Both the position numbers and the translations under genes were made by a program. From Candidatus Gugararchaeum adminiculabundum (GTDB lineage Archaea; Micrarchaeota; Micrarchaeia; Burarchaeales; Gugararchaeaceae): DNA of 64,000 nt. Below the pieces are notes generated by a model that saw only the letters and a program-made list of their open reading frames with translations, was not told the DNA's origin and did not search any database. The DNA is taken from assembly GCA_902384795.1 (NCBI GenBank), contig CABMDC010000007.1, forward strand, positions 79,717-143,716. Direction: 5' to 3'. This document shows positions 1,337 through 59,747 of the stretch, in pieces (position 1 is the stretch's first letter; each line of letters starts with the position of its first letter).

Positions 1337-1370
1337 AAGTCCCTGAGGAGTAGGGATATGGGTGAAAATT

Positions 1371-2270
1371 ATGGATAAGAAAAATGAAATAACGCTGATA
1401 ATCGGCGGGAGCGCGAGCGGGAAAACCAGATTGCTTAAAGCAATGAAGGAAGCGGCTGGGGAAAACGCGGAATATTATTATTGCAATATAGAAGAAAAAC
1501 TTCCGCAGATTAATGGAGGTTCCTGCGCGCTTCTTTTGGATGAGCCGTTTGGCTGTCTTGATGCCAAGCCGGTTGCGGCACGCATTGGGCGATTGGCAAG
1601 AAAAAGAAAAGTAGTCGTGGCGACCGCCCTTTCGGAAGCGCGGGAATTCGGCTGGGATAAAGCGGAACTGAATGTAATAGAGCTGAAAGGGCATGAAATC
1701 ACGTCCGAGCGAATGAGCGTCATTTGGCAGGGCGTTTCAATTGTTGAGAGGGAAAAATCGCTTTTTAGAGCCACTGATATCGGATACCTTGAAGACGTGA
1801 AGAAAGAGATTGAAGAGCGCGGAGTGAATGTGAACGCCCGTGATTTGGGACTGAGAACCCTGCTGCATTATGCAGATAAACCGGAGATAGCGGAGTATCT
1901 GATAAAAAAAGGGGCGATGGTTGATGCAAGAGATTCTTTTGGCGCAACTCCGCTCTACGATGCTGCGTTCGGAGGAAAAGCTGGAGTAGTAAGAGTTCTA
2001 CTGAAGCATGGAGCCGATCCAAACGCAAAGGGACCTGGAAGGAGTACACCACTGCATGAAGTGTGCCATATGTCTGACGTAAAAATGAAAGGTGCAGATT
2101 ATTTGGAAGTTGCGAAACTACTAGTTAAGGCAGGCGCTGATGTAAACGCAAGGAACAGTTGTGGGTATCCGCTGCTTTATTTTGCAAAAAACAAGAAAGT
2201 GATTAAATTCCTGAAAAAGCACGGGGCAAAAGCCAATAAAAGCAGAGCTAGTAAAGATAAACACCGGTGA
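1371..2270 (+). CDS. P-loop ATPase-like domain fused to ankyrin repeats
   Basis: 299 residues. Residues 1 to about 110 repeat the fold of the 212 gene: Walker A GGSASGKTR and Walker B-like ALLLDEPFGCLDA, which resembles the ABC Walker B/D-loop, followed by RKRKVVVATA. No LSGGQ-type signature is seen. From about residue 135 to the end there are around five ankyrin repeats (for example GATPLYDAAFGGKAGVVRVL, HGADPNAK, KAGADVNARN). ATG 1371 is preceded by GGGTGA. The ankyrin array probably binds a protein partner and the ATPase domain may act as a switch; this is inference. It ends 6 bases before the helicase-nuclease start. Confidence 0.75.
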   Translation: MDKKNEITLIIGGSASGKTRLLKAMKEAAGENAEYYYCNIEEKLPQINGGSCALLLDEPFGCLDAKPVAARIGRLARKRKVVVATALSEAREFGWDKAELNVIELKGHEITSERMSVIWQGVSIVEREKSLFRATDIGYLEDVKKEIEERGVNVNARDLGLRTLLHYADKPEIAEYLIKKGAMVDARDSFGATPLYDAAFGGKAGVVRVLLKHGADPNAKGPGRSTPLHEVCHMSDVKMKGADYLEVAKLLVKAGADVNARNSCGYPLLYFAKNKKVIKFLKKHGAKANKSRASKDKHR

Positions 2271-2276
2271 AACGGC

Positions 2277-5087
2277 ATGAAACTTTCAGACCTAAACAAA
2301 GAGCAACTCGCAGCCGCCACGCACGACGGCAATGTTTTCGTATTGGGCAATCCGGGAACCGGCAAGACCAAGCTCATAACTGGCCGCGTGCTTCACCTGC
2401 TGGAAAAGGGAGTCGCGCCCGAAGACATCCTTTGCATGACATTCACCATAAAAGCAACGGATCAATTGCGCGAAAAGCTTAATGAAAACCTTGGCAAGGA
2501 GCACCCAGAAGTGAATGATGTGTGTGTGGAAACATTCCACTCCTTTTCCTTCAATTCCGTGAAGCCATTTCTGGAACAGCAAGGAGTAAAGACTAACGTG
2601 CTCAGGGAAGGAATGCAGCGGTTCCTGCTTTTCAAAACAATAAAGAAGCTGGACATATTTGACTATTCTGACGAATATTTGGTGGAAATTGCAGCCGACT
2701 TCTCTTCTAAACTCTCTTATCTCAAATCATTCGGAGCCAAAAAGAACTACAGCGCAAAGGACATAATTGCCAAGCTCACCGAGTTATACGGGGAGAAAAA
2801 AGTAAAGCCGGAAGAAGAGAAAATTAAGGCGCTTGTGCCATACATTCCACGTATCCTGAAAGAATACGATGAGGAAAAGGCAAAGCACGGGATTGATTAC
2901 ACTGACATGCTCCTATTTTTCAAAGAACAACTTAACAAAGAACCGATGCATTTTGAGCACGTGATTGTTGACGAACTGCAGGATGCGAACGAATTGCAGG
3001 CGGATATTGTTCTCAAGCTCGCTGAAAAAGGCATCTACTTTGTTGTCGGCGACAGGAAGCAGAGTATTTTCCGCTTTCAGGGCGCGTCGGTCAACACTTT
3101 TCAGAGATTTAAGAAAAAGGCAAAGGAATTCGTGCTTGTGAAAAACTACCGTTCAACTGATGAAATTTTGCAGTATGCAAAGGAATACCTCATCCAGAAA
3201 ACAGACTCGTACAAGGATGAACTGAAGGGGCTGTCAAGCGAGAAAAAGGGCAGCAAACCTGCCATCCTAAGCGCCGAAGGCGACACTTCTGTTGTGATTC
3301 ATTTCATAGACAAGATGCTGAAGAAGCATGGAGAAGTTGCGATAATCGCGCTCAGGCATGCGCAGCTCAGGGAAGTTGCCGACATGCTTGATCTTCTTGG
3401 CAAGGAATACACCATAACCGGCACTCGAAACTCCACTTCAGAGTACACGAAAGAGTGCATCACTGACTTGATTAATGTGCTACTGAACAAGGATAAGGAT
3501 AGTTTCCTGCGAGTATTGGCTTCGCCGTTTGTGAATGTCAGTTTCAGAGATGTGATTGAGCTAAAAGAGGAGATGGTTGAGAAAGACATAACCGACATAG
3601 AAAAACTCAGGGGAAAGCCGGTGCTAAAAGGCTTTTTTGCCATGTACGACCGATTCAAGGAAAGCAGCGCCACGATGTACAAATCCTTTGGCATTCTCTT
3701 TGACCAGTTTTTGCTCCCTTCTGCCTTGAGCCTGGGCAAGGATCAGTTCCTCACTACAAACGGCATCTACTCCTCTGTGCGCGAGTACTTTGAGGAAGCT
3801 GTTTTCACCAGGCACAATGACCTGATTGATTACATCTCCATTTCAAGCGAGATTTACGAGCTCGTAATCGGAGAAGAAGAGAGCAAGATAAAACTCTTCA
3901 CAGTCCACTCGGCAAAAGGTAAGGAGTTTGAGTCGGTCATTTACATGCCGTCAAAAGGCGGAAGCGGTACAAAATTCATAGAATGGACTTTTGACGGGAT
4001 GATTTTGCAGGACTATGACATAACCGAGGATTTGAATTTTGAGGAGTTCAAAGTGGATTTTGTTGCCATGACCAGGGCAATGAACGAGCTTACGGTCATA
4101 GGCAAGCCTACCTACTATTTGGAGGGAGTTTCTTCCAAGATTGATTCAACCGAGATACCAAATCTTGAGACATTGAATCCGGAAACGAACACGCAGTTAT
4201 TCAACCTCTATTCGCATATTTTGCCTCTGCTTCAGGAGTGCAAATATGATTCCGCGATTACGGAGATAAACGGGCTGCGCAAAAAGAGGCCAATTGTTTT
4301 GGATTGGCTGCTGAAATACGCAGATGACCGAAGGCGCGCAAACAAGAGCTATTCCTACTCCTACTTCAAATCATTTTTAGATTGCCCTCGCAAGTTCCTT
4401 TTTACCCAATTGCTCGAGGTGAACGCCTTTGAGCCGAGCACAGGAGCGATGGATTTCGGCACTGCTGTGCACGATGCGCTTGAAACCATGAGCAAGAAAG
4501 GGACTGTTTCCTTAGACCACATAAAAGACAAGAAGGTCAGGGATGCAGTTGCAAACGCGTTCCTTTGTGAAGCCGAACTTTTGGAGAAGTTGAAGGCGGA
4601 AACCTCCAAGTTCGTGAGCGCGGAAGGAGATTACACAGTTCCTTTGTCTGAATTCCTTGGGAAGAAATGCGAAGGAAAGATACACGGGAAAGTTGACAAG
4701 ATTTTCGAGGCCAACGGGAAGACGGTAATTGTTGACTATAAAACAAGCGCAGGCGGTGATGCGGACAGCAATCAGCTGCATCTTTACCGCTATCTTTACA
4801 GCACTGAGAAGAAGATTAAGGATATTGAGTCGATTCTTCCTTACTTCTACTTCGTTTATGTGCGCGACAATCCTGTTAAAAGCGAAAGTGGGCGCGGGCA
4901 TAAAATTGCCGGTGCGCAAAGCGCCAAATACGCAGAGAAACTTCAAGAGATGCGCTCCGCTGTGGAGCAGATTGCGCTTGGAGATCCGGTTGTTTTTCTT
5001 TCAAAGAATGAAAAGGGATGCGACAGATGTCCCGCTAAATTGTTGTGTGAACGTTTAGAGTGGGAGAAGAGAGGGCAATCAGAGTAG
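2277..5087 (+). CDS. UvrD/PcrA-like SF1A helicase fused to a RecB/AddB-type nuclease
   Basis: 936 residues. Helicase motifs in order: GNPGTGKT (I), DELQD (II), GDRKQSIFRFQGA (III), KNYRST (IV), TVHSAKGKEFE (V), VAMTRA (VI). The C-terminal third has a PD-(D/E)XK nuclease (GTAVHDALE, GKVDKIFEANGKTVIVDYKT) and cysteines in FLDCPRKF plus GCDRCPAKLLC, the layout of the AddB-type iron-sulfur cluster. It should unwind and degrade DNA ends, in recombinational repair or defence. ATG 2277 follows GGTGA and overlaps the upstream stop region, so it belongs to the same operon as the P-loop-ankyrin gene. Family confident; the exact pathway is not. Confidence 0.9.
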   Translation: MKLSDLNKEQLAAATHDGNVFVLGNPGTGKTKLITGRVLHLLEKGVAPEDILCMTFTIKATDQLREKLNENLGKEHPEVNDVCVETFHSFSFNSVKPFLEQQGVKTNVLREGMQRFLLFKTIKKLDIFDYSDEYLVEIAADFSSKLSYLKSFGAKKNYSAKDIIAKLTELYGEKKVKPEEEKIKALVPYIPRILKEYDEEKAKHGIDYTDMLLFFKEQLNKEPMHFEHVIVDELQDANELQADIVLKLAEKGIYFVVGDRKQSIFRFQGASVNTFQRFKKKAKEFVLVKNYRSTDEILQYAKEYLIQKTDSYKDELKGLSSEKKGSKPAILSAEGDTSVVIHFIDKMLKKHGEVAIIALRHAQLREVADMLDLLGKEYTITGTRNSTSEYTKECITDLINVLLNKDKDSFLRVLASPFVNVSFRDVIELKEEMVEKDITDIEKLRGKPVLKGFFAMYDRFKESSATMYKSFGILFDQFLLPSALSLGKDQFLTTNGIYSSVREYFEEAVFTRHNDLIDYISISSEIYELVIGEEESKIKLFTVHSAKGKEFESVIYMPSKGGSGTKFIEWTFDGMILQDYDITEDLNFEEFKVDFVAMTRAMNELTVIGKPTYYLEGVSSKIDSTEIPNLETLNPETNTQLFNLYSHILPLLQECKYDSAITEINGLRKKRPIVLDWLLKYADDRRRANKSYSYSYFKSFLDCPRKFLFTQLLEVNAFEPSTGAMDFGTAVHDALETMSKKGTVSLDHIKDKKVRDAVANAFLCEAELLEKLKAETSKFVSAEGDYTVPLSEFLGKKCEGKIHGKVDKIFEANGKTVIVDYKTSAGGDADSNQLHLYRYLYSTEKKIKDIESILPYFYFVYVRDNPVKSESGRGHKIAGAQSAKYAEKLQEMRSAVEQIALGDPVVFLSKNEKGCDRCPAKLLCERLEWEKRGQSE

Positions 5088-7449: not shown

Positions 7450-9198
7450 TTAAACAGTTGCACTATTGATAAAAATTTCGAGTTGTGATTTACCTGCAGC
7501 TTTGAATACGGATTCGATAAATGCACCCGTTTCTTTTAGAGCTTTTGTTACTTCTTCAGTATTTCTAAGACCGCCTGACTTATTTAATGGAACTAGTAAT
7601 TTATCTCTGGTGGGTAAAAATAATTCTACCACTGGACCCCATAGTTTTTCATAATCTTCAAGCGATTTCATCGTTTTGAATTTGAGAGTAAATGGATTAG
7701 GTATTTGCTTATCCAGAATTGTTTCCATGGCAGCACCTATAGCTGCGCTTAGAATAAGAATTGAACCACGCTCTCTAAAAAATTCAAGCGAATCCTTATC
7801 GGACTGGCTTAGTGCCACGCCACTTTCCTCTTTTTGGACCAAGCTTAACTTGTAGTTTCGAATTGCGCGATCTAGCGAATACACAAAAACTAGGTGCTCG
7901 GCGTGAGTATTTTCATTATACAGTTTTGGATATTCTTTATCTGATAGCCATATATCGGATTTTTTGTGATAAGCAATTTCTGGTTTCTGATGGAATGAAG
8001 CTAACGCTTGGGCAACTGATTCAGAAGGGAGCAACGTGAGTTTTGAATCGTAGTTCTCTATTCCGCGCCTTCCGCCTAGATAAAGTAATTTTGGGTATTT
8101 TTCTTTGAACTCAGCTCGGAGCCTCTGCTGAACAGGATGATTACTTCTAAAATCAGCTGCTTCCAGTTTGTTTTGGCTGTTGTTGTAGCGGACTATATCT
8201 AGAACAATATCGGACTTGGAACATTTAATAAAACGCGCTTGGACCATCGCTAGTTTATCCGGCGGGTTAGTAAGATCAGAAATTGCACCAGTAGTTTGCG
8301 CGCCATTAACGATGGATATCCCTTCAATCGAAAGCTTTTTCCCATCACTGGATGGAACGAAATTATTCACAAGAGCGGATATCCCATTATTAAACGCCCA
8401 GAAGTTTTCTGGTGACTGAACTGCCGAGTCCTTGATTGCGGAATTTATATTAGAATCTCCTCGTCTAAGACCCAGGAAATCGCGTAAATTCGCGGAGAAT
8501 AGTTTTTTCTCATGTTTTTTGTATAAATCATATAACCAAGATGCCGGTACAGTGGTTGAATAAGCCTCCCACGCATGAGATTTAATTAAATGCCCTCCGG
8601 GAATATCAACTTCAAATTTTTCATTTACGAGAATTGGGGTTTGCGTAGAGTTATACCATTCTGCTAGCGTATTTAATCCGACTTCCACCACAGTTACCTC
8701 GATAGAAACTGATGGATAATTGGATTTGAGAAGACTGCTCGCAGTTTTCGCTACTTGGGCCAATTCGTTGGCAGAGTTTTTTGACTCTGCTATATTGTGC
8801 GCATACCAAAAAGTTAAGTTATCAATCTCACCGGCATTCAATGAATCTCTCAGAGCCTTGGCGTGTGGACGGAGACGCTCTGGGAGATCGTCTATGTTGC
8901 TTGCAAGCAACCAAGACGCAGCAGTATTTAGATCTGCTGCTTTGTTGGATGGAGCCGCTTCCTTCTTTGTTTCTGAGATATATGACTGACCGATAATTGC
9001 GATCCCACCTTCTCGATCTGTATAGACGAGATCACATTTTTTATCATCAGGACCATCCACTAGACATTCGGCAGCTACTCCGTGGATGTCTTCTAGATTC
9101 AATCTCAACTCTAAAGCATAAAGTAGGAGAGCGTTTCTGCCATAAACCTTTAGGTCACTTCTATTGTTGAATGCAGGTATTACTGGATTTTCAACCAT
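7450..9198 (-). CDS. AIPR family abortive-infection phage-resistance protein
   Basis: 582 residues. The AIPR core is clear in the middle: FWAFNNGISALVNNF, GISIVNGAQTTGAI, QARFIKCSKSD, RYNNSQNKLEAADFRSNHP. AIPR proteins are associated with abortive phage defence and restriction-linked islands; the biochemical activity is not settled and nothing here decides it. I start at ATG 9198 (MVENPVIPAF), preceded by GGGAGAT, rather than TTG 9210. The gene is more AT-rich than the housekeeping genes to the right. It lies between two copies of the ORB-like palindrome and next to a Fic gene, consistent with a small acquired defence cluster. Confidence 0.88.
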   Translation of the reverse strand: MVENPVIPAFNNRSDLKVYGRNALLLYALELRLNLEDIHGVAAECLVDGPDDKKCDLVYTDREGGIAIIGQSYISETKKEAAPSNKAADLNTAASWLLASNIDDLPERLRPHAKALRDSLNAGEIDNLTFWYAHNIAESKNSANELAQVAKTASSLLKSNYPSVSIEVTVVEVGLNTLAEWYNSTQTPILVNEKFEVDIPGGHLIKSHAWEAYSTTVPASWLYDLYKKHEKKLFSANLRDFLGLRRGDSNINSAIKDSAVQSPENFWAFNNGISALVNNFVPSSDGKKLSIEGISIVNGAQTTGAISDLTNPPDKLAMVQARFIKCSKSDIVLDIVRYNNSQNKLEAADFRSNHPVQQRLRAEFKEKYPKLLYLGGRRGIENYDSKLTLLPSESVAQALASFHQKPEIAYHKKSDIWLSDKEYPKLYNENTHAEHLVFVYSLDRAIRNYKLSLVQKEESGVALSQSDKDSLEFFRERGSILILSAAIGAAMETILDKQIPNPFTLKFKTMKSLEDYEKLWGPVVELFLPTRDKLLVPLNKSGGLRNTEEVTKALKETGAFIESVFKAAGKSQLEIFINSATV

Positions 9199-9272
9199 AT
9201 AATCTCCCAATTGCTATAATAGCGAGATTAAGAATATAACATTTCCTCTCACTCGCATGAGGAGCAACGCTT

Positions 9273-9446: not shown

Positions 9447-10391
9447 ATGCACATTGAATCACGGACGAGCAGGACTCTGAAGAAATACTACCTGGCGCAC
9501 ACATACCGAAAGAATGGCAAGGTACTGAAAGTTAGGATATATTTAGGTGCTAATCTTTCCGAAAAGGAACTAATGCAGAAAAAAGCGGACGCCGAAACCG
9601 AGATCAAGCAGCGAATCGTTTCACGTGAAGGAATTGGAGACCCATACGTGACTGTGCTTTCGCCTTCTGAACTAGATGAACTGCGAACATTAGAAGCAAA
9701 AGGAAAAGTAAAAATAATGCACCTCTCCGAAGAAGACTGGGTAAAGTTCAGCGAAGCTTTTACTTACGATACGAACGCGATAGAAGGCTCGAGCGTCGAT
9801 GCCAAAGAAGTCATCGAAGTCCTTGAAAAAAGGAAATGGCCGGAAGACAGATCCAAAGAAGAGATAGCTGAAACCTATGGGGTCGCAGAAGCAATCAAGT
9901 ACATACGAAGAACAAAAGAGCATATCTCGCTTAAGCTAATTCTTGCGTTGCACCGCATTGTTTTCAGGAACTCAAAACACTTCGCAGGGAACCTGAGGCC
10001 AAAAGGAGTCGAAGTAGTAGTCCAGGATGGACACGGAAATGTTGTTCACCGGGGAGCTCCTTCTACAGAAGTTAGGTATCGGCTTGAAGAATTAGTTCGC
10101 TGGTATGAAAAAAACAGGAAAAAGTACCCTCCGATTGTTCTTGCGGCGGTAGTACACAACCAGTTTGAGAATGTGCATCCATTTCAAGATGGAAATGGAA
10201 GGGTCGGACGACTGCTTCTTAACAATATATTGTTGAAACATGATCTCCCGCCACTCAATATCGAACTTAAAAACCGAAGACAGTATTACGCAGCGTTGCA
10301 GGCCTATCAAAACGATCACAACTTACGTCCGATGCTCAGGCTGATGCTGAAAGAGTATCGCGCACTCAAGAGAATATTCAAAAAGAGGTGA
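9447..10391 (+). CDS. Fic domain AMPylase-like protein
   Basis: 314 residues. The catalytic Fic motif HPFQDGNGRVGR is at residues 244-255 and is complete (HxFxDGNGRxxR), so nucleotide transfer, usually AMPylation of a target protein, is expected. An inhibitory-helix motif TNAIEGS lies about residue 111, N-terminal to the Fic core, the arrangement of class II self-inhibited Fic proteins. The N-terminal 90 residues (HTYRKNGKVLKVRIYLGANL) form a basic domain seen in many archaeal Fic proteins. Fic proteins act in toxin-antitoxin systems, signalling or defence; proximity to the AIPR gene favours defence. Target unknown. Confidence 0.92.
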   Translation: MHIESRTSRTLKKYYLAHTYRKNGKVLKVRIYLGANLSEKELMQKKADAETEIKQRIVSREGIGDPYVTVLSPSELDELRTLEAKGKVKIMHLSEEDWVKFSEAFTYDTNAIEGSSVDAKEVIEVLEKRKWPEDRSKEEIAETYGVAEAIKYIRRTKEHISLKLILALHRIVFRNSKHFAGNLRPKGVEVVVQDGHGNVVHRGAPSTEVRYRLEELVRWYEKNRKKYPPIVLAAVVHNQFENVHPFQDGNGRVGRLLLNNILLKHDLPPLNIELKNRRQYYAALQAYQNDHNLRPMLRLMLKEYRALKRIFKKR

Positions 10392-11072: not shown

Positions 11073-12383
11073 ATGGCGAGCATCGCGGACGACCCGTTTG
11101 GTTCCAGCCCGGACATGAAGAAGTATGCCCAGGGATTGCGGAGCGGATACAAGAGCGAGTTTGAAATGGCGCGGGCCCTGTTCGATGCGGTAAAAGACGA
11201 CGGCAAGCTCGGCATAAAATATTCCTATTCTTCGGTGGAACCGCGCGAGCACGGAACGAAAACAGCATTGGATGTCTGGAAGGACAAGAGCGGGGACTGC
11301 GACGAGCTGACCGGACTATACAACGCACTCGTGAAGCTCGCTGGGATGAAGGGCGCACAGGGATTTGCCGGCATTGGATACGCCAATGTGGACATCGATT
11401 ACAGGGGAGAGGAAGTCGGCCACATGTGCGCGGTTGTTTTCATAAAAGGCGATGTGCCTGAAAAATTCCGCTACAAGGATTTCGAGGGCAACAAAAAGTT
11501 TAGGGAGAGCACGCTCAAGACCGCGGGGATAGCCGACTCCAAAGACATGCACATGGTGCTCGTTGACCTGACTTACGAACAGTTCGGCGCGCAGCACAAG
11601 AAAATCTCCGTGCTGAATGAGAAGGAGGCGCTGGCGTTTTATTACTGGCAGGCGGGAACAGGCTTCAAGGCCGGTGGAAGGGCGCAGGTTGCGGAGAAGT
11701 GCTTTGAAAAGGCCCTGGACTATGCAAAGGGCAGCGCCAGGGCGCAAGTCTATATGTCTGAGGGGAACAACTACGCCGAGCGCGGCATGGCGTATAGGGC
11801 GATTGGAAAGACCCTGGAAGGAGTTGCCTCCGGGCTCGCCCACAGGAACGACATGAAATACGAGCAGAAGGTACAGCCGAAAGTGACCCTGGAGCAGGAC
11901 AGCAAGAACACGGAGAAGCGGATCAAGAAATGGAACTATCTGGCTCCGAAAACCGATGGGGGCGCTGCGGCGTGCATGAAACTAGGCAGGAAATATCTGA
12001 TAACGAAAAAATACGACAAGGCGCTGGATTATTTCGAGAGAGTGCTCGGATTCGACAGCAAAAATATGCCTGCGAACTATTTCGCAGCCATGGCTTGCAA
12101 GGAAAAGGAGGATTACGGGGGCGCGATTGGGCATTTGAAAAAAGTCGTTGCTGTTGACGATTCGCACGCGGATGCGCACTACTGGCTCGGGGTGAGTTAT
12201 CTGAAAACCAGGGAATACGGAAACGCTGCCCGGGAATTTGAGAAGACGCTCAAGCTTGCGCCGGATTACCCCTACGCGAAGTACAACCTCACGCTCGTGA
12301 AAATGTACGACAAGGCCAGGGATTCCGGGAAAATCATCGCAGAAAGCGCAAAGCATATGGACCCAAGCGTGCTGATGAGATGA
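11073..12383 (+). CDS. Transglutaminase-like protein with C-terminal TPR repeats
   Basis: 436 residues. The N-terminal domain has the papain-like transglutaminase triad: C76 in SGDCDELTGLYNALVKLAG, H117 in GHMCAVVF, D165 in MVLVDLTYE. Residues from about 195 onward hold TPRs, clearest near the C-terminus (AMACKEKEDYGGAIGHLKKV, HYWLGVSYLKTREYGNAARE). No signal peptide is evident, so it is probably cytoplasmic. Likely a cysteine protease or cross-linking enzyme with a partner-binding TPR tail; the substrate is unknown. A TATTAATTATAC-like box about 30 nt upstream suggests a leaderless start. Confidence 0.82.
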   Translation: MASIADDPFGSSPDMKKYAQGLRSGYKSEFEMARALFDAVKDDGKLGIKYSYSSVEPREHGTKTALDVWKDKSGDCDELTGLYNALVKLAGMKGAQGFAGIGYANVDIDYRGEEVGHMCAVVFIKGDVPEKFRYKDFEGNKKFRESTLKTAGIADSKDMHMVLVDLTYEQFGAQHKKISVLNEKEALAFYYWQAGTGFKAGGRAQVAEKCFEKALDYAKGSARAQVYMSEGNNYAERGMAYRAIGKTLEGVASGLAHRNDMKYEQKVQPKVTLEQDSKNTEKRIKKWNYLAPKTDGGAAACMKLGRKYLITKKYDKALDYFERVLGFDSKNMPANYFAAMACKEKEDYGGAIGHLKKVVAVDDSHADAHYWLGVSYLKTREYGNAAREFEKTLKLAPDYPYAKYNLTLVKMYDKARDSGKIIAESAKHMDPSVLMR

Positions 12384-51210: not shown

Positions 51211-51389
51211 TCAGTCTCACGCTCCAAATATTATATTATCCTAGTATCATTATGTGTCTGATAGAACCAATATATAATTAGTCCTTTTTTTCCGTCAGTT
51301 TACAGGAATGTTTGGGGTTAACATATTTAAATATATATTGCTCCGCAGGCTAAGAACGATTAAATACTCTAAAATACATGAATTACAAC
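51211..51389. promoter_or_regulatory. Divergent promoter region, psmA superoperon and 51390 gene
   Basis: AT-rich stretch. For the minus strand, TAATTATATATTGG and GGATAATATAATATTTGG are TATA candidates for the psmA operon. For the plus strand, ACATATTTAAATATATATTG near 51320-51338 and GATTAAATACTC near 51358 are TATA candidates; the latter is about 28 nt before ATG 51390, which argues for a leaderless start there. Confidence 0.5.
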
Positions 51390-52388
51390 ATGAAAATAGG
51401 GTGGCTCCAGAATGTACGGACTGAACGCAAGGCGGTGTGGAGGGAACATCTGCCTAATATTGAAACTGACGAGGCGACCATAAGTCGGGCATTTTTCCAC
51501 AGAATAGACGGTGGCCTTCAGAAAAGAATCGAAAGAAAGCAGGAGATGAAGGATGGAACAACGATTTCCAGCAGGGATGGGAGAAACAAGTACCTCGGCA
51601 AGCCAGTTAGTCTGGAGTCCAAAGAGGGCGAAGTTGAAACAGAGGATGAATCGCCTAGGCTATGGAATACGTCTCCGCTTTATCATTTGTTCAACTATTT
51701 AGCACTTAAGCTCGCAGGGACTGTTTTTCCTGAAAATTTCGTGAGGGTAAGAAGCTTGCGGGTAATTGAAGAAGAGGGGAAGTTGTTTTCAGTGATTAGC
51801 TCGGACTACGTTGGAGATACAAGCGGAGTGATTGAAAGGAGAAACCTGTCAAAAGGAGAGTTTTATGCTGCGTACTTCGGGGGAAAGAGGCAGGCTGCCT
51901 ATGACCTAAGGGATGCGGCGGATTCCGAGGAAAGAATGAGAACTCCGGGGCTTGTTCAAGCAATAGCTAAAGTGCAGGCAGCAGGGATAATACTGGAGCA
52001 CCCGGAAGCAAACTATCATGTTGATGAAAAAGGGAACGTTGTTTTCTTTGAAGTCAAAAAAATTGACGTGGACGGAATTGTTGGTGCGATAAATAGAATG
52101 CCCGAAGGGAAACAGAAAGATCTTGCGAATATTTATCTGGCAGGAGTTTACATGCTGTTTGTGGAAGCTGAATTTGAAACCATAAAGAGAATCGGCGGCG
52201 CTAGAGGTGCTTGTGTTGAGATGGGATTGTTTGGAGAAACTTCGTTTAATAGATTAGTAAAGATGCTTTCCCTGCAATTCAGGAAAGGGAATTATGAGCT
52301 CCTTGAGAAGAATATTTATGAGTATGTAATTTTTGAATTGCAGCATGAACTCGAGAAAGAAAACAGAGGGTTAAACATTAAAAAATGA
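51390..52388 (+). CDS. Hypothetical protein, 332 aa, possible kinase-like fold
   Basis: ATG 51390 (MKIGWLQNVRTERK) is favoured by the TATA-like box; ATG 51378 is possible. No family recognised with certainty. The segment GIILEHPEANYHVDEKGNVV followed by FFEVKKIDV has the order H..N..(V/L)D..GNVVF.E seen in catalytic loops of atypical small-molecule or protein kinases, but a Gly-rich loop is not evident. Cytoplasmic, no signal peptide. Confidence 0.5.
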   Translation: MKIGWLQNVRTERKAVWREHLPNIETDEATISRAFFHRIDGGLQKRIERKQEMKDGTTISSRDGRNKYLGKPVSLESKEGEVETEDESPRLWNTSPLYHLFNYLALKLAGTVFPENFVRVRSLRVIEEEGKLFSVISSDYVGDTSGVIERRNLSKGEFYAAYFGGKRQAAYDLRDAADSEERMRTPGLVQAIAKVQAAGIILEHPEANYHVDEKGNVVFFEVKKIDVDGIVGAINRMPEGKQKDLANIYLAGVYMLFVEAEFETIKRIGGARGACVEMGLFGETSFNRLVKMLSLQFRKGNYELLEKNIYEYVIFELQHELEKENRGLNIKK

Positions 52389-52831: not shown

Positions 52832-54184
52832 CTAGGCGGATTGGCGCTTTGGCTCAAGCAGGGGTTTCACCTTGGAGATAAATGGAATCGGGTCCGGCGG
52901 AGGCTTGGCCAGGATGCCTGCCTCAATCTTTGCATTGATCACCGCAGTATAGTAAAGATCCGCCTGGAGCTGCACAGCGCGCTGGTACATCTGCTTCATT
53001 TCGTCCCTGGAGTAAATGTTCTTGCTTTGGACCACGTCCCAGAAAACATTGGCTAGCACGCTGGTGCCATTGCCGTTTCCAGTGACGAGGTTGTAAAGGG
53101 ATAGCGCCGAATTTTTAATGAAGGATTTTGCTGCGATGAATGCTGTTTCAAGAGTTTTTCTGGATTTGCTTTTCGGCTTGATTTTCTCCATCTCCTGCTT
53201 TTTTTGCGTATACTTGTCATGGGAGAATTTGGCTTCCTGCTCATACCTTTGGGCAATGCCCTGGCTTCCGCCATAGATGTATTTCGGGGTAGTCGCCAGG
53301 CTCGGCTTGTTGCGCTTTTTCGCGAACAGGAGTTCGAGCGCCCCGTGCGAGGCAGGATCCGGCGAGACCCATTCCCAGCCAACGAATTTCCCAACCGCAT
53401 GGTGTGGGATGATTATGTCCGCTGCGATGTGCCCGAGATTTCCTGCGTATTTGCTTGCCCAATCTTTCGGGTCGCCATCCGCGGCTTTTTTGGAAGGCTG
53501 CGGTTTCATTTGATCTGAAAGGTTCGCAACCAATTGCTCGTAATTGAGGATAAGCGCGTGAAGCCCATAGCCCTTGTACCTCTGTTCCTGGTAAATCCTT
53601 TTCCAAAGGTCGCTGATGCCGGCAAGCGGCCGGGGTTTGCCCGGGTGCATTTTTCTCGGGTTTGCGATTGCATCGGGATTGTAATTCTGGTTTGCGCCGC
53701 CGTGGATTATTTCTTTTTCAGGGGAATGGCCAAAATGCACATCCTGGGTGATTGCTTCCCAGTCGGGCTGGGTGTTTGCAAGCAGGAATTTGCCCACATG
53801 AATGAACTCCTTGAGCTCAAGAACAATGCTGAGCGAATCCGAACCCAGCTCCTTGTGGGTGTTGTGCAAAGGGACTTTCGCATCAAGCAGCTTGGAGATG
53901 TACGCTGCCAGCTCAGGGTGGTCGTGTTCGATTGTCAGAAGCAGCTTTTGCCAGGACTGCCTTGCCTGGGCGAGTTCCTCTCGGGTCAAGGGCATTATTT
54001 CGGTGAATATGGAAGAATGGCCGTTCATCTTGTCTATGTCCTTTGGCCGGATTGCCAAAAAGCCGCGCTGGTCGAAAATCAGTTGATAGGGGAGTGGCTT
54101 GTCCCTTAGATGGGACGGCAATGGGGGTATCTTAGTGAAGTCTGCCGACGCAGGGGCCCGGTTCTCCCTAGTTACCACTTTCAT
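52832..54184 (-). CDS. Hypothetical protein, 450 aa
   Basis: No family recognised. Mostly helical and charged, with His-rich motifs (QDVHFGHSPEKEIIHGG, AADIIIPHHAVGKFVGWEW) that could bind metal. No signal peptide or membrane helix. A minus-strand TATA-like GCTATTTATACC lies about 25-30 nt before ATG 54184, so it is a leaderless single gene divergent from the caspase-like gene. Confidence 0.6.
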   Translation of the reverse strand: MKVVTRENRAPASADFTKIPPLPSHLRDKPLPYQLIFDQRGFLAIRPKDIDKMNGHSSIFTEIMPLTREELAQARQSWQKLLLTIEHDHPELAAYISKLLDAKVPLHNTHKELGSDSLSIVLELKEFIHVGKFLLANTQPDWEAITQDVHFGHSPEKEIIHGGANQNYNPDAIANPRKMHPGKPRPLAGISDLWKRIYQEQRYKGYGLHALILNYEQLVANLSDQMKPQPSKKAADGDPKDWASKYAGNLGHIAADIIIPHHAVGKFVGWEWVSPDPASHGALELLFAKKRNKPSLATTPKYIYGGSQGIAQRYEQEAKFSHDKYTQKKQEMEKIKPKSKSRKTLETAFIAAKSFIKNSALSLYNLVTGNGNGTSVLANVFWDVVQSKNIYSRDEMKQMYQRAVQLQADLYYTAVINAKIEAGILAKPPPDPIPFISKVKPLLEPKRQSA

Positions 54185-54274: not shown

Positions 54275-54286
54275 GGATTAAATATC
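54275..54286 (+). promoter_or_regulatory. TATA box of the caspase-like gene
   Basis: GGATTAAATATC lies about 22-33 nt before ATG 54308, giving a leaderless start. Confidence 0.5.
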
Positions 54287-54307: not shown

Positions 54308-56026
54308 ATGCCTGAAACGTACCTGGTGCAGGGAACTCTCGAAGAGGGAAAAAAGAAGCAGAAAACCGACTTGAAGAATGTGATACCTGCGAAAAAAACG
54401 CTGGGGGACAGGACTATCGACTATTTGACCACGCATCTAGATAGCGGGCTGACTGCGGGCATGCGCTCAGGATTGGCGCTGAAAATGGCTGTGAAAAAGC
54501 CCTACTTTTTCAGCAGGAAGAACATTGAGGGGCTGCTTGAAGGGATGAAAAACCCGAAAGCGATTGAGAACTGCGATTTCGCGCTGGGATGGCTGCACAG
54601 GGAAAGGCCGGACCTTTTCCGCAAAGGTGACGGAGAGAGGATGGGCAAGCTGGAACAGGAAAACCAGGCATACTGGAAGCGCGCGAATGAAAAGAAGAAT
54701 GCAAAGGTTCCGCTCAAACAGAGAATTAAAGACAGGGGGATGAAACAGCTTGCCAAGAATTTGGAAAACGGGGCATTGGCGGCTGCGAGCGCAGCAACGC
54801 TGGTTAGTTTGGCGGTGGACCACCCGGAGAAGTTCAAAAAAGAGCAGATTCGGCAGATTGCCGCAGGCATGAAGAATGAGAAAAGCGCTGAAGATTGCGC
54901 GCGCATATTGGCCTGGCTCTCTGATTCAAGGCCGGAATTATTTGGAAGAAAGGATGTTGAGCTGATTATTGCAGGGCTGAAAAGCAAGAAATGCGCGGAG
55001 AATTGCGCTGCGGCATTGAGTTATTTGGCTGATTTGAGATCCGAGTTGTTTGAAAAAAAAGACATTGAACCGATTATTGCGGGGATGAAAAATAAGGAGA
55101 ATCCGGGGGGATGCGCGGCCGTATTGAATTGGCTGGCAAATAAAAAACCGGAATGGCTTAGCTCGGAAAACAAACAGGATATTCTGGAGAGTGTAAAAAA
55201 TCATGGCGGATGGGAAATGCACAGGACAGTGATAGACGTGATTTATGCGATAAACAACAAAGATGATGGAACTGCGGAGAAAATTGCCTGGCAGGCTGAA
55301 AAGGCCAACTTTTCCAATATTGATGGAAAATATGCCGGCAAACTGAGAAGTGAATTCAATATAGAATATGCGCTCCGCTATCCCGAATCAATTTTGGAAG
55401 AAATGGTTTCCAAATCCGGGAAAAAAGATGACAGGCCGATTGCGCTGGTTGCATACCCTAAAAATGACTGGAACGGCTCCCTGTACAATAGTTATGCGAC
55501 GCTTGCGGCTTTGAAAAAGGCAGGGTTCCGGGTAATGGTTTTTGAGAGCGGAAACCAGGATGAGTATGGCAGGATGGGAACTGAATTGACGAAGAGATAT
55601 GGAAAGGCTTCGCTGCTGGTGCTTGTGGAACATAGCAATGAAGAGTCGATTTTGCTAGGGAAGACGTTCGACGTGAGCGACAGGGGCAATCTGGATATGC
55701 ATGACACGGGCATTTATCATACAATGACCGGGTGGCTCACGCGCAGCGCAAAAATTGTGATTAACGCATGCGATGCTGGGAAAGGAAAGGAGAATATTGC
55801 AAGGACGATTTCCATTTATACGGGAGCAAACGAAGTGGATGTTTTTGCATCGGATCAGGCAGCCGGGCAGATGAATGTTTTCACGCGCAAAAGAGCTGAT
55901 GGAAAGCCGGAACTGGTGACAATCAGCTACGCTGACGGCCATGTGGTCAAGTATCACGCAGGGGTTAGGGTCGCCAGCGCCAAAACCACCGAGACCAAAG
56001 TTGCGAGCTCTAAAAGTGAGGAATAG
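54308..56026 (+). CDS. Helical-repeat protein with C-terminal caspase-like domain
   Basis: 572 residues. Four helical repeats of about 39 residues share the pattern (K)..I..I..GMKN.K..E.C...L.WL....P.LF (for example QIRQIAAGMKNEKSAEDCAR, VELIIAGLKSKKCAENCAAA). The C-terminal part (RPIALVAYPKNDWNGSLYNS, LAALKKAGFRVMVFES, ASLLVLVEHSNEES, SAKIVINACDAGKG) follows the caspase/CHAT fold, with His442 and Cys488 as catalytic-dyad candidates. It would be a cysteine protease or peptidase-like switch with a repeat sensor. The His is followed by Ser, not the usual Gly, so activity is uncertain. No signal peptide. Confidence 0.68.
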   Translation: MPETYLVQGTLEEGKKKQKTDLKNVIPAKKTLGDRTIDYLTTHLDSGLTAGMRSGLALKMAVKKPYFFSRKNIEGLLEGMKNPKAIENCDFALGWLHRERPDLFRKGDGERMGKLEQENQAYWKRANEKKNAKVPLKQRIKDRGMKQLAKNLENGALAAASAATLVSLAVDHPEKFKKEQIRQIAAGMKNEKSAEDCARILAWLSDSRPELFGRKDVELIIAGLKSKKCAENCAAALSYLADLRSELFEKKDIEPIIAGMKNKENPGGCAAVLNWLANKKPEWLSSENKQDILESVKNHGGWEMHRTVIDVIYAINNKDDGTAEKIAWQAEKANFSNIDGKYAGKLRSEFNIEYALRYPESILEEMVSKSGKKDDRPIALVAYPKNDWNGSLYNSYATLAALKKAGFRVMVFESGNQDEYGRMGTELTKRYGKASLLVLVEHSNEESILLGKTFDVSDRGNLDMHDTGIYHTMTGWLTRSAKIVINACDAGKGKENIARTISIYTGANEVDVFASDQAAGQMNVFTRKRADGKPELVTISYADGHVVKYHAGVRVASAKTTETKVASSKSEE

Positions 56027-56855: not shown

Positions 56856-58283
56856 ATGGTAGTTGTTGGCCAGAATGCAGTAGCATTGAACAGTAGAATT
56901 AGGGCGCACCCCACAGGAGACCTCCTGTCAAGAAATGCGGAAACGGCTTTTTTTCCAAAAGATGGGATTCTTGCCTGGGCAGGCAAAGCGGCGGATATGA
57001 CCATAAACGCTACCATCGGGGTTGCAAAGGGCCCGGATGAAAGCGGGAAGATGAAGGAACTTTACATCCCGACAGTCATGCGCCAGCTCAAAAATCTCTC
57101 GCCAGAAGGCGCTGTGGCGTATTCTCCGCCAAAAGGGATAGCTGACTCAAAAGACAAAGAAAACGAAGACGTTACAATACCTGGGCTCGGAACAAGATGG
57201 AAGGAAATGCAATTGGAAAAGAACCCGACGCTCCATGGGATTGATACAAGCACTCCCATAGCAACACTCGGGCTCACTGGAGCCAGCTACCTGGCGCTGA
57301 AGCTCACCTGCGACCATGGCGACGAAATAATAACAACCAGCCACTACTGGGAGAATTACGGATTAATGGCGGACGACATCGGAGCGAGGATTAAAACGTT
57401 CAAAACTTTCGTAGAAGATGGCAAAGGGAAAATTATTGGCGGATTGAATATTGGAGGGCTTAGGGAAATGCTGCTCGCAGAAGGCGACAAGAAAACTCTT
57501 TTGCTGAATTTCCCAAACAACCCGACCGGCTATTCGCCAACGATTGAAGAGGCGGGAAAAATCAGGGACGTGATATTCGAAGCGGCGGAAAAAGGGAAGA
57601 AGATCACGGTGATAATTGATGATGCGTACTTTGGCTTCCTTTTCACGCCCGATGCCTACGGGGAATCGCTTTTCAGCCTGCTTGCGAATGTGCATGAAAA
57701 CGTGCTCGCGATAAAAGTTGACGGCCCGACAAAGGAGAGCTACGTCTGGGGGTTCAGGGTTGGCTTCATCACCATTGCCTCGGCCGGGATGACAAAGGAT
57801 ATCTATGCCGCGTGGGAGGAGAAGATGGCGGGAATGATCAGGAGAAGCTATTCAAACGGGCCAACGCCTTCGCAAAAAGCGCTGCTGGCCGCCTATGGAA
57901 AAAATGCGGATGACCCGACATACGGGCAGTACCTTGCTGAGAAAAAAGTGATTGACAAAATAATTGAACATAGATTTAGGGCGATGCAAATGGAGTTTGA
58001 ATTGAACAAAAATGGGCTGTACGTACCTGTGCCGACAGTTGGCGGCTATTTCAGCTGCTTTGCCCTGGTGGCTGAACAAATGGGCAACGTAACCGCGGAA
58101 GATTTGGCATTGAAATTGCACGAGGAACCGTACAGCACGGGGATAATTCCAATGAGCAGGACCGAGTTCCGCGTGGCGTTCTCAGGCGTCCCGATTGAGT
58201 CCGAAGGGGAAAACCTGAAAGGCAGGGACATGAGGCAGCTGTTTGTGAACATCAGCGCTGCTTGCGAGGATATTAGGAGATAA
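56856..58283 (+). CDS. PLP-dependent class I/II aminotransferase (first of two paralogues)
   Basis: 475 residues, fold type I. MTINATIGVAKGPDESGKMK, substrate/PLP motifs LLNFPNNPTGYSPT and VIIDDAYFGF, and the PLP lysine in VDGPTKESYVWGFRVGF. The family includes aspartate, alanine and aromatic aminotransferases; specificity cannot be told. GAGGGGGG lies ahead of the ATG. It shares its whole length with the next gene. Confidence 0.85.
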   Translation: MVVVGQNAVALNSRIRAHPTGDLLSRNAETAFFPKDGILAWAGKAADMTINATIGVAKGPDESGKMKELYIPTVMRQLKNLSPEGAVAYSPPKGIADSKDKENEDVTIPGLGTRWKEMQLEKNPTLHGIDTSTPIATLGLTGASYLALKLTCDHGDEIITTSHYWENYGLMADDIGARIKTFKTFVEDGKGKIIGGLNIGGLREMLLAEGDKKTLLLNFPNNPTGYSPTIEEAGKIRDVIFEAAEKGKKITVIIDDAYFGFLFTPDAYGESLFSLLANVHENVLAIKVDGPTKESYVWGFRVGFITIASAGMTKDIYAAWEEKMAGMIRRSYSNGPTPSQKALLAAYGKNADDPTYGQYLAEKKVIDKIIEHRFRAMQMEFELNKNGLYVPVPTVGGYFSCFALVAEQMGNVTAEDLALKLHEEPYSTGIIPMSRTEFRVAFSGVPIESEGENLKGRDMRQLFVNISAACEDIRR

Positions 58284-58391
58284 CGGCAATAGGAATGAGA
58301 TAGCAGCAGGGAGCGACAACACCAGTAGGAAGAGCGGATATAATAATTTAAACCAGGCGCGTGAAATCCTGCTTGGCTACGGGGGGTTATT

Positions 58392-59747
58392 ATGAACGAA
58401 TTTAAACTTGAGATCAAGCCAGCGGCACAGAAGCTGAATGATATTCTTAGGTCTGAAAATTCCGCAATTCTTGACATGCTTTCCGAAAGGGGCCTGGCCA
58501 TCTCATTTCCCTGGAGCGGAATCCTGGGCCAGAGTGCGGAGGCAAAGGGGAAGAAAATCAATGCGACCATCGGGATTGCCGTGCTGGATGACGGAACGCC
58601 CATGAGGCTTCCGTCCGTGATGGAGCAGATCGGAAAAATTGGCGAAACTCCCGCCGATGCGTTGACCTATGCTCCGAGCCAGGGAAAGCCCGAGCTGAGA
58701 AAAGTCTGGAAGGAAATGATCCGGAAGAAAAATCCTTCGCTCGGAAACGCGCTGATCAGCACCCCGATTGTCACCATTGCGCTCACGCACGGAGCGGTGG
58801 TTGCGGGCTACTTGTTTGCAAACCCGGGGGACGAGATAATTGTTGCCGACAAATTCTGGGGAAATTACAACCTGATGTTTGAGAATAATTTTGGCGCGAA
58901 GCTGAAGAAGATAAATACTTTCAAGGGAAACGGGATGGATTTGGAAGCGCTAAAGGAAGCAGTGAACGCGCCGGGGGACAAAAAAATAATTGTTTTCAAT
59001 TTCCCCAATAATCCGGCAGGCTACACGCCAACCGATGGGGAGGCGCACGCGATTGCAAAAATGCTGCACGAGGCTGCGGACAGGGGAAAGAAAATTGTCG
59101 CAATCTTTGATGACGCCTATTTCGGGCTGGTCTACAAGCCAGGAGTTTTCAGGGAATCTGTTTTCGCGCTCTGCGCAAACCTGCACCAGAATATTTTGGC
59201 AGTGAAGCTGGACGGGGGGACAAAGGAGGATTATGTCTGGGGATTCCGCGTGGGATTCATCACTTTTGCGTACAAGGGGATGCAGGCGAGCGGGGATGTG
59301 AAAACCCCCAGGGGCGCGGAAGTGCTTGAGGACAAGGCGGCCGGAGCGGTCCGCGGGACTGTTTCCAATGCGCCGCAGATTTCGCAAAGCATTCTTGTGA
59401 AGGCATTCACTTCCCCGACCTATGGCGAGGAGAAGCGGAAGATGTTCGAGATATTGAAAGCCAGGGTTGAGGAAGTTGACAGGATTCTCGCCGAGAACGA
59501 GGGAAGGTACAGGGAAGTTTTCAGGCCTTTGCCCTACAATTCCGGCTATTTCATGTGCGTGCAGGTTGACCGGGGAATTGACGCGGAAAAAGTCCGAAAG
59601 ATGCTGCTTGACAAGTACAGCACCGGCGTGATTAATGTCGGAGATAATCTGCTGCGGGTTGCGTTTTCAGCAACCCCGAAAAAGGACATAGCCGCGCTGT
59701 TTGAGAACATATTCAAGGCGTGCAAGAACGTCAAGGCGGGCGCATGA
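58392..59747 (+). CDS. PLP-dependent class I/II aminotransferase (second paralogue)
   Basis: 451 residues, same layout: INATIGIAVLDDGTPMRLPS, VFNFPNNPAGYTPT, AIFDDAYFGLVYKPG, PLP lysine in LDGGTKEDYVWGFRVGF. A GGATATAATAATTTAAACC promoter lies at about 58336-58352 and GGGGGGTT before ATG 58392, so it has its own transcript. The pair arose by tandem duplication and may form a heteromer or serve two amino acids. Confidence 0.85.
   Translation: MNEFKLEIKPAAQKLNDILRSENSAILDMLSERGLAISFPWSGILGQSAEAKGKKINATIGIAVLDDGTPMRLPSVMEQIGKIGETPADALTYAPSQGKPELRKVWKEMIRKKNPSLGNALISTPIVTIALTHGAVVAGYLFANPGDEIIVADKFWGNYNLMFENNFGAKLKKINTFKGNGMDLEALKEAVNAPGDKKIIVFNFPNNPAGYTPTDGEAHAIAKMLHEAADRGKKIVAIFDDAYFGLVYKPGVFRESVFALCANLHQNILAVKLDGGTKEDYVWGFRVGFITFAYKGMQASGDVKTPRGAEVLEDKAAGAVRGTVSNAPQISQSILVKAFTSPTYGEEKRKMFEILKARVEEVDRILAENEGRYREVFRPLPYNSGYFMCVQVDRGIDAEKVRKMLLDKYSTGVINVGDNLLRVAFSATPKKDIAALFENIFKACKNVKAGA

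Follow-up and report, generated by a model that had tools for sequence, protein, structure and literature searches.

Introduction

In separase (C50), a large helical superhelix precedes a clan CD domain at the C-terminus. A sensor or repeat module is also joined to a clan CD protease in TPR-CHAT/Csx29 (Craspase), which is associated with the type III-E gRAMP (Cas7-11), and in SAVED-CHAT (8tl0). To our knowledge, most DUF4347 proteases are without known function; Tce1 and Tce2 of Pseudomonas aeruginosa belong to this family, and Tce1 (9qpe), whose N-terminus is short, acts as a cargo effector of the T6SS. The catalytic dyad of Tce1 is His186/Cys240 (PMC13323088). In the clan CD layout the catalytic His follows strand 3 and the Cys follows strand 4, and the S1 determinants of these enzymes include MALT1 Asp365, gingipain Asp163 and caspase-7 Arg87 (PMC4357240). 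A 2012 survey found caspase homologues in 5 of 114 archaeal genomes, all of them Euryarchaeota, which makes them rare in archaea (PMC3501461), and our literature searches returned no account of Micrarchaeota proteins with a caspase fold.

Here we describe a gene in a stretch of 64,000 nucleotides (hereafter the window) from the genome of Candidatus Gugararchaeum adminiculabundum, which comprises 1.47 Mb in 26 contigs and shares its phylum, Micrarchaeota, with the genomes searched. A sequence-only reading of this gene had proposed helical repeats followed by a caspase-like protease domain.

Results

The gene and its surroundings

The open reading frame was recovered exactly as first read, and its features are collected in Table 1. 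The transcript had been proposed to be leaderless, which fits the upstream sequence, because the TATA-like TTAAATAT is centred ~26 nt before the ATG and no Shine-Dalgarno sequence is visible before that ATG. The description as a single gene beside unknown genes is also fair: the closest divergent ORF (52832-54184, minus strand) is a 450-aa orphan that matches neither Pfam nor PADLOC models and lacks relatives in 59 other related genomes. Housekeeping genes make up the wider surroundings, with proteasome and exosome genes upstream and two aminotransferases downstream, and no defence gene adjoins the gene. The aminotransferases form a tandem pair of class I/II genes (56856-59747, plus strand), apparently related to one another. 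A 336-aa ORF (51378-52388, plus strand) has no Pfam match; by eye, its ILEHPEANYHVDEKGNVVFFEVKKID resembles the catalytic loop and the metal motif of kinase-like proteins.

Table 1 Features of the gene and its predicted product (conservation is counted over distinct family domains)
Feature	Coordinates	Strand	Basis
Whole gene, 572 aa: helical-repeat N-terminus and C-terminal caspase-fold domain	54308..56026	+	ORF and translation
TATA-box-like TTAAATAT	54278..54285	+	read from sequence
Degenerate repeats, ~1.5 units, residues ~49-110	54452..54637	+	motif resemblance (AIENCDFALGWLHRERPDLF), sequence reading
Repeat unit 1, residues 158-193	54779..54886	+	36-residue period
Repeat unit 2, residues 194-229	54887..54994	+	36-residue period
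Repeat unit 3, residues 230-265	54995..55102	+	36-residue period
Repeat unit 4, residues 266-301	55103..55210	+	36-residue period
Clan CD (caspase-fold) domain and family-specific helical lead-in, residues ~340-556	55325..55975	+	alignment, AlphaFold2 model, Foldseek, DUF4347 match
Arg357, family motif IEYFxRY, 41/42	55376..55378	+	conservation among distinct domains
Asp387, loop 1 after strand 1, 42/43; candidate S1-pocket acid	55466..55468	+	conservation, model, MALT1/gingipain analogy
Glu413, end of strand 2, 43/43	55544..55546	+	conservation
His442 (CAT), predicted catalytic, 43/43	55631..55633	+	alignment; on Tce1 His186
Cys488 (TGC), predicted catalytic nucleophile, 43/43	55769..55771	+	alignment; on Tce1 Cys240

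Fold and family of the C-terminal domain

The isolated domain was modelled with AlphaFold2 from 13 alignment rows, giving a mean pLDDT of 87 and a pTM of 0.88. The caspase-type strands expected from the sequence are present in this model, with His442 after strand 3 and Cys488 after strand 4. A Foldseek comparison with the PDB matched the model to caspase-11 (E 4.8e-6), Tce1 (9qpe, E 5.5e-6) and SAVED-CHAT (8tl0, E 4.4e-5), with CED-3, MALT1 and legumain also in the first ranks and a probability of 0.99-1.00 for the top matches, and the earlier whole-protein model gave a similar ranking. The comparison with caspase and CHAT structures thus bears out the proposed fold. The TM-score to Tce1 is 0.62 by target length, and moderate TM-scores are as expected at the identity of ~14%. 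When the profile of a 20-sequence family alignment was searched against PDB sequences, the best two matches were 9qpe (Tce1, E 0.0019) and 8tl0 (SAVED-CHAT, E 0.014), a sequence-derived line of evidence that is separate from structure. In a viral structure library, giant-virus caspase-domain proteins were among the best matches to the model. The C-terminal domain almost certainly has the caspase-hemoglobinase (clan CD) fold, and the fold and family assignment is well supported.

The isolated window domain matched DUF4347 (PF14252) with 25.8, 26.6 and 26.5 bits for three boundary sets, against a gathering cut-off of 24.6. DUF4347 was absent from the listing for the full-length protein and for a 271-aa fragment, and it was matched by 13 of 20 family members at any score, the relatives lying under the cut-off. 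Because the full-length protein is not called and the relatives fall short, DUF4347 membership, as judged from these profile scores, is borderline; a fair statement is that the domain is a clan CD domain closest to DUF4347. CHAT (PF12770) gave no match in the window domain and a weak one in 1 of 20 relatives (E 0.16), and Peptidase C14 (PF00656) likewise matched 1 of 20 relatives (E 0.012) and not the window domain. TPR and CHAT models yielded nothing above cut-off in the window protein, and PADLOC-DB 2.0.0 gave no defence-model match and contains no model for the family.

Predicted catalytic and conserved residues

Conservation was counted over 43 distinct family domains from Micrarchaeota, and the Arg, Asp, Glu, His, Cys and a Gly are invariant in the 20-sequence alignment. 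The His442/Cys488 pair is positioned as first claimed, and loss of either residue in homologues did not occur. In the profile alignment to 9qpe, the family His falls at chain position 77 and the Cys at 131; the chain begins at residue 110, which places them on His186 and Cys240 of Tce1. Three lines of evidence uphold the caspase-like fold and its His/Cys dyad: the fold search, the PDB profile search with the dyad in register, and conservation in 43 of 43 domains. Peptidase chemistry is very probable for the family. In the model, Asp387 lies near the usual clan CD S1-determinant site, and because an Asp is near-invariant at this position of loop 1, the family probably prefers a basic P1 residue, by analogy with MALT1 and gingipain.

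The window copy departs from the usual family motifs GGHGxxxSIxLG and SCSTG, having VEHSNEESILLG and NACDAG instead; EHS thus stands for GHG and ACDAG for SCSTG, with Ser443 where 41 of 43 domains have Gly. In a tree of the 43 domains it sits on a long branch (1.76) with weak support, so that its placement is not firm. Because of Ser443, the ACDAG motif and the long branch, this copy may be a weakened protease or a pseudo-protease. Its drift might even have produced a catalytically dead caspase-fold scaffold that works as a regulator or binding platform, which would agree with the altered residues flanking the His and Cys and with the bacterial pseudo-orthocaspases reported in PMC6426788. The dyad, however, is usually lost in pseudo-enzymes, and the window copy retains His442, Cys488, Glu413, Asp387 and Gly491, so we regard a dead scaffold as unlikely and this copy as a likely active peptidase.

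Helical repeats of the N-terminus

Four helical repeats of ~39 residues had been read from the sequence. Four clear tandem units are indeed present over residues 158-301, and the length needs correction to 36 residues (lag-36 autocorrelation 1.32, against a maximum of 0.06 in 2000 shuffles). AlphaFold2 on the whole protein was confident for the C-terminal domain; the N-terminal half had low confidence and gave no usable model. A phmmer search with the repeat region matched 8vd6, "CAP REPEAT" (E 2.4e-6), in an alignment restricted to the helical repeats, which says nothing about function. Searches of the full protein against Pfam, NCBIfam, PHROGs and PADLOC returned nothing beyond chance-level matches. 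Matches to "Clostridium neurotoxin" (E 0.005) and a winged helix (E 0.01) were rejected as chance, since they are below cut-off and located in repeat or strand segments.

Comparison with known systems

The gene had been likened to TPR-CHAT by its layout of repeat sensor plus protease. As an analogy of architecture this stands, since the clan CD fold and a sensor or repeat module joined to the protease are shared with TPR-CHAT/Csx29 and SAVED-CHAT, and the His and Cys of 8tl0 align with those of the window family by profile. Membership of CHAT or TPR-CHAT does not stand: the window protein has no CHAT Pfam match and DUF4347 is closest, and, unlike these systems, it has no SAVED domain, no recurring CRISPR partner and 36-residue units that are not recognised as TPR. 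No cas gene recurs among 40 family loci, in contrast to the gRAMP association of Craspase. The fold and the His/Cys register are those of Tce1, whereas the N-terminus of the window protein consists of helical repeats and a helical lead-in (IEYFxRY). Caspases, the MALT1 paracaspase and metacaspases (C14) are alike in fold, in dyad placement and in a loop-1 acid comparable to MALT1 Asp365, but the window domain has no C14 Pfam match and no death-domain partner was identified. Separase shares the order of helical superhelix and C-terminal clan CD domain; it falls outside the top fold matches, and the window family differs from it in being much smaller, patchy and multi-copy.

Distribution and architecture of the family

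When 98 related genomes were searched by tblastn with the window protein, 20 further places came up, and in each the match was confined to the C-terminal domain; a profile search built on the 20-sequence alignment found the family in 38 of 301 Micrarchaeota genomes. Scanning 85,462 GTDB species for an 8-residue conserved pattern returned 8 loci, all in Candidatus Micrarchaeota; because a single such pattern was used, absence outside the phylum is weak evidence. The viral contigs, phages and plasmids searched held no family member. Across 47 members at 40 loci, the domain is C-terminal, followed in most by ~55-85 residues after the Cys, while the N-termini are variable, often solenoid, and range from very short to more than 1000 residues. 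HEAT and armadillo models exceeded the cut-off in the N-terminus of one relative.

One genome (G050) carries nine copies, of which seven lie in an uninterrupted tandem run on the same strand (loci L051/L060). In this run, at L060:5232-19530 (G050:C25), the paralogues succeed one another with no other gene intervening. Mean identity among the nine paralogues is 36% for the N-termini versus 51% for the protease domains, the N-termini being lower in 36 of 36 pairs; this faster divergence may stem from relaxed constraint and need not mean new recognition. The family looks like a scattered, locally multiplied set of sensor-controlled proteases in Micrarchaeota.

A search for neighbours in relatives had been suggested; neighbour clustering over the 40 loci and the window found no recurring partner gene, and housekeeping genes alone recur. 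Without a recurring partner, sensing and effect must sit in one chain or in unlinked genes. The housekeeping neighbourhood and the separase-like layout would suit a regulatory protease with a constitutive part in cell physiology, for instance in the cell cycle or in protein processing, and not in defence. A core cell-cycle protease is, however, expected to be near universal and single, and the presence of members in so few genomes of the phylum, with nine in one of them, makes this reading improbable. Equally improbable is a protease that enters or attacks the host or neighbour cells of a probably symbiotic archaeon in the manner of the T6SS effectors Tce1 and Tce2. Tce1 is indeed the nearest solved structure, and PMC5864196 reports physical interaction of some Micrarchaeota with other archaea; against this, neither a signal peptide nor a membrane helix was seen in the window protein, an N-terminal membrane stretch occurs in only 3 of 47 members, and no secretion genes adjoin the gene.

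Discussion

A sensor and a protease in one chain best account for the domain layout, the gene duplications, the patchy distribution and the absence of a linked partner. We propose a stand-alone, solenoid-controlled, DUF4347-like clan CD cysteine protease with defence or controlled self-damage as its likeliest role, and hold the chances of this combined reading to be evenly balanced. The protein would be cytosolic, and its own N-terminal alpha-solenoid would hold it and control it. Once this solenoid binds a signal, which might be a regulatory partner or a macromolecule that is foreign or damaged, the C-terminal caspase-fold domain would be released or positioned, and the His442/Cys488 dyad of the freed domain would cut at least one protein of the cell, with a basic residue as the probable P1. 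The family is duplicated and varies at its N-termini, as do sensor-effector conflict proteins, and its purpose could be defence or controlled self-damage. Gating by the solenoid is, in our judgement, slightly favoured, and a defence role of the family can be suggested only tentatively, by analogy to TPR-CHAT and SAVED-CHAT. The alternative that the C-terminal domain has another Rossmann-like fold, with a coincidental His/Cys pair, is close to refuted, since short-chain dehydrogenases appear only lower in the Foldseek list and clan CD fills nearly all its top ranks; the sequence profile alone aligns the dyad with that of Tce1, and both residues are conserved throughout.

A multi-copy, sensor-like family in archaea with small genomes makes proteolytic cell death or immunity in archaea testable, and contributes an archaeal branch close to the DUF4347 proteases. 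More speculatively, and with considerable doubt, Micrarchaeota may own an expanded set of partner-free caspase-fold proteases with solenoid sensors. Tandem duplication and solenoid divergence would have built from them a repertoire of receptors inside the cell, each coupled directly to a protease for death or defence. If true, this repertoire would be an archaeal one-polypeptide counterpart of caspase-based innate immunity.

Other genes in the window

A gene for an AIPR protein (7450-9210, minus strand; PF10592, E 3e-34; PADLOC AbiU, 2e-33) adjoins one for a Fic-domain protein (9447-10391, plus strand; PF02661, E 5e-20); these two defence-type genes lie ~44 kb from the caspase-fold gene. At 1362-5087 (plus strand), an ankyrin-repeat protein whose start is P-loop-like comes immediately before a 936-aa UvrD-like helicase, which resembles GajB and RT-associated helicase models, and the two may form a pair. 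At 11073-12383 (plus strand), a Transglutaminase-core domain is followed by TPR repeats, a second layout in the window that combines repeats with a cysteine-enzyme-type domain.
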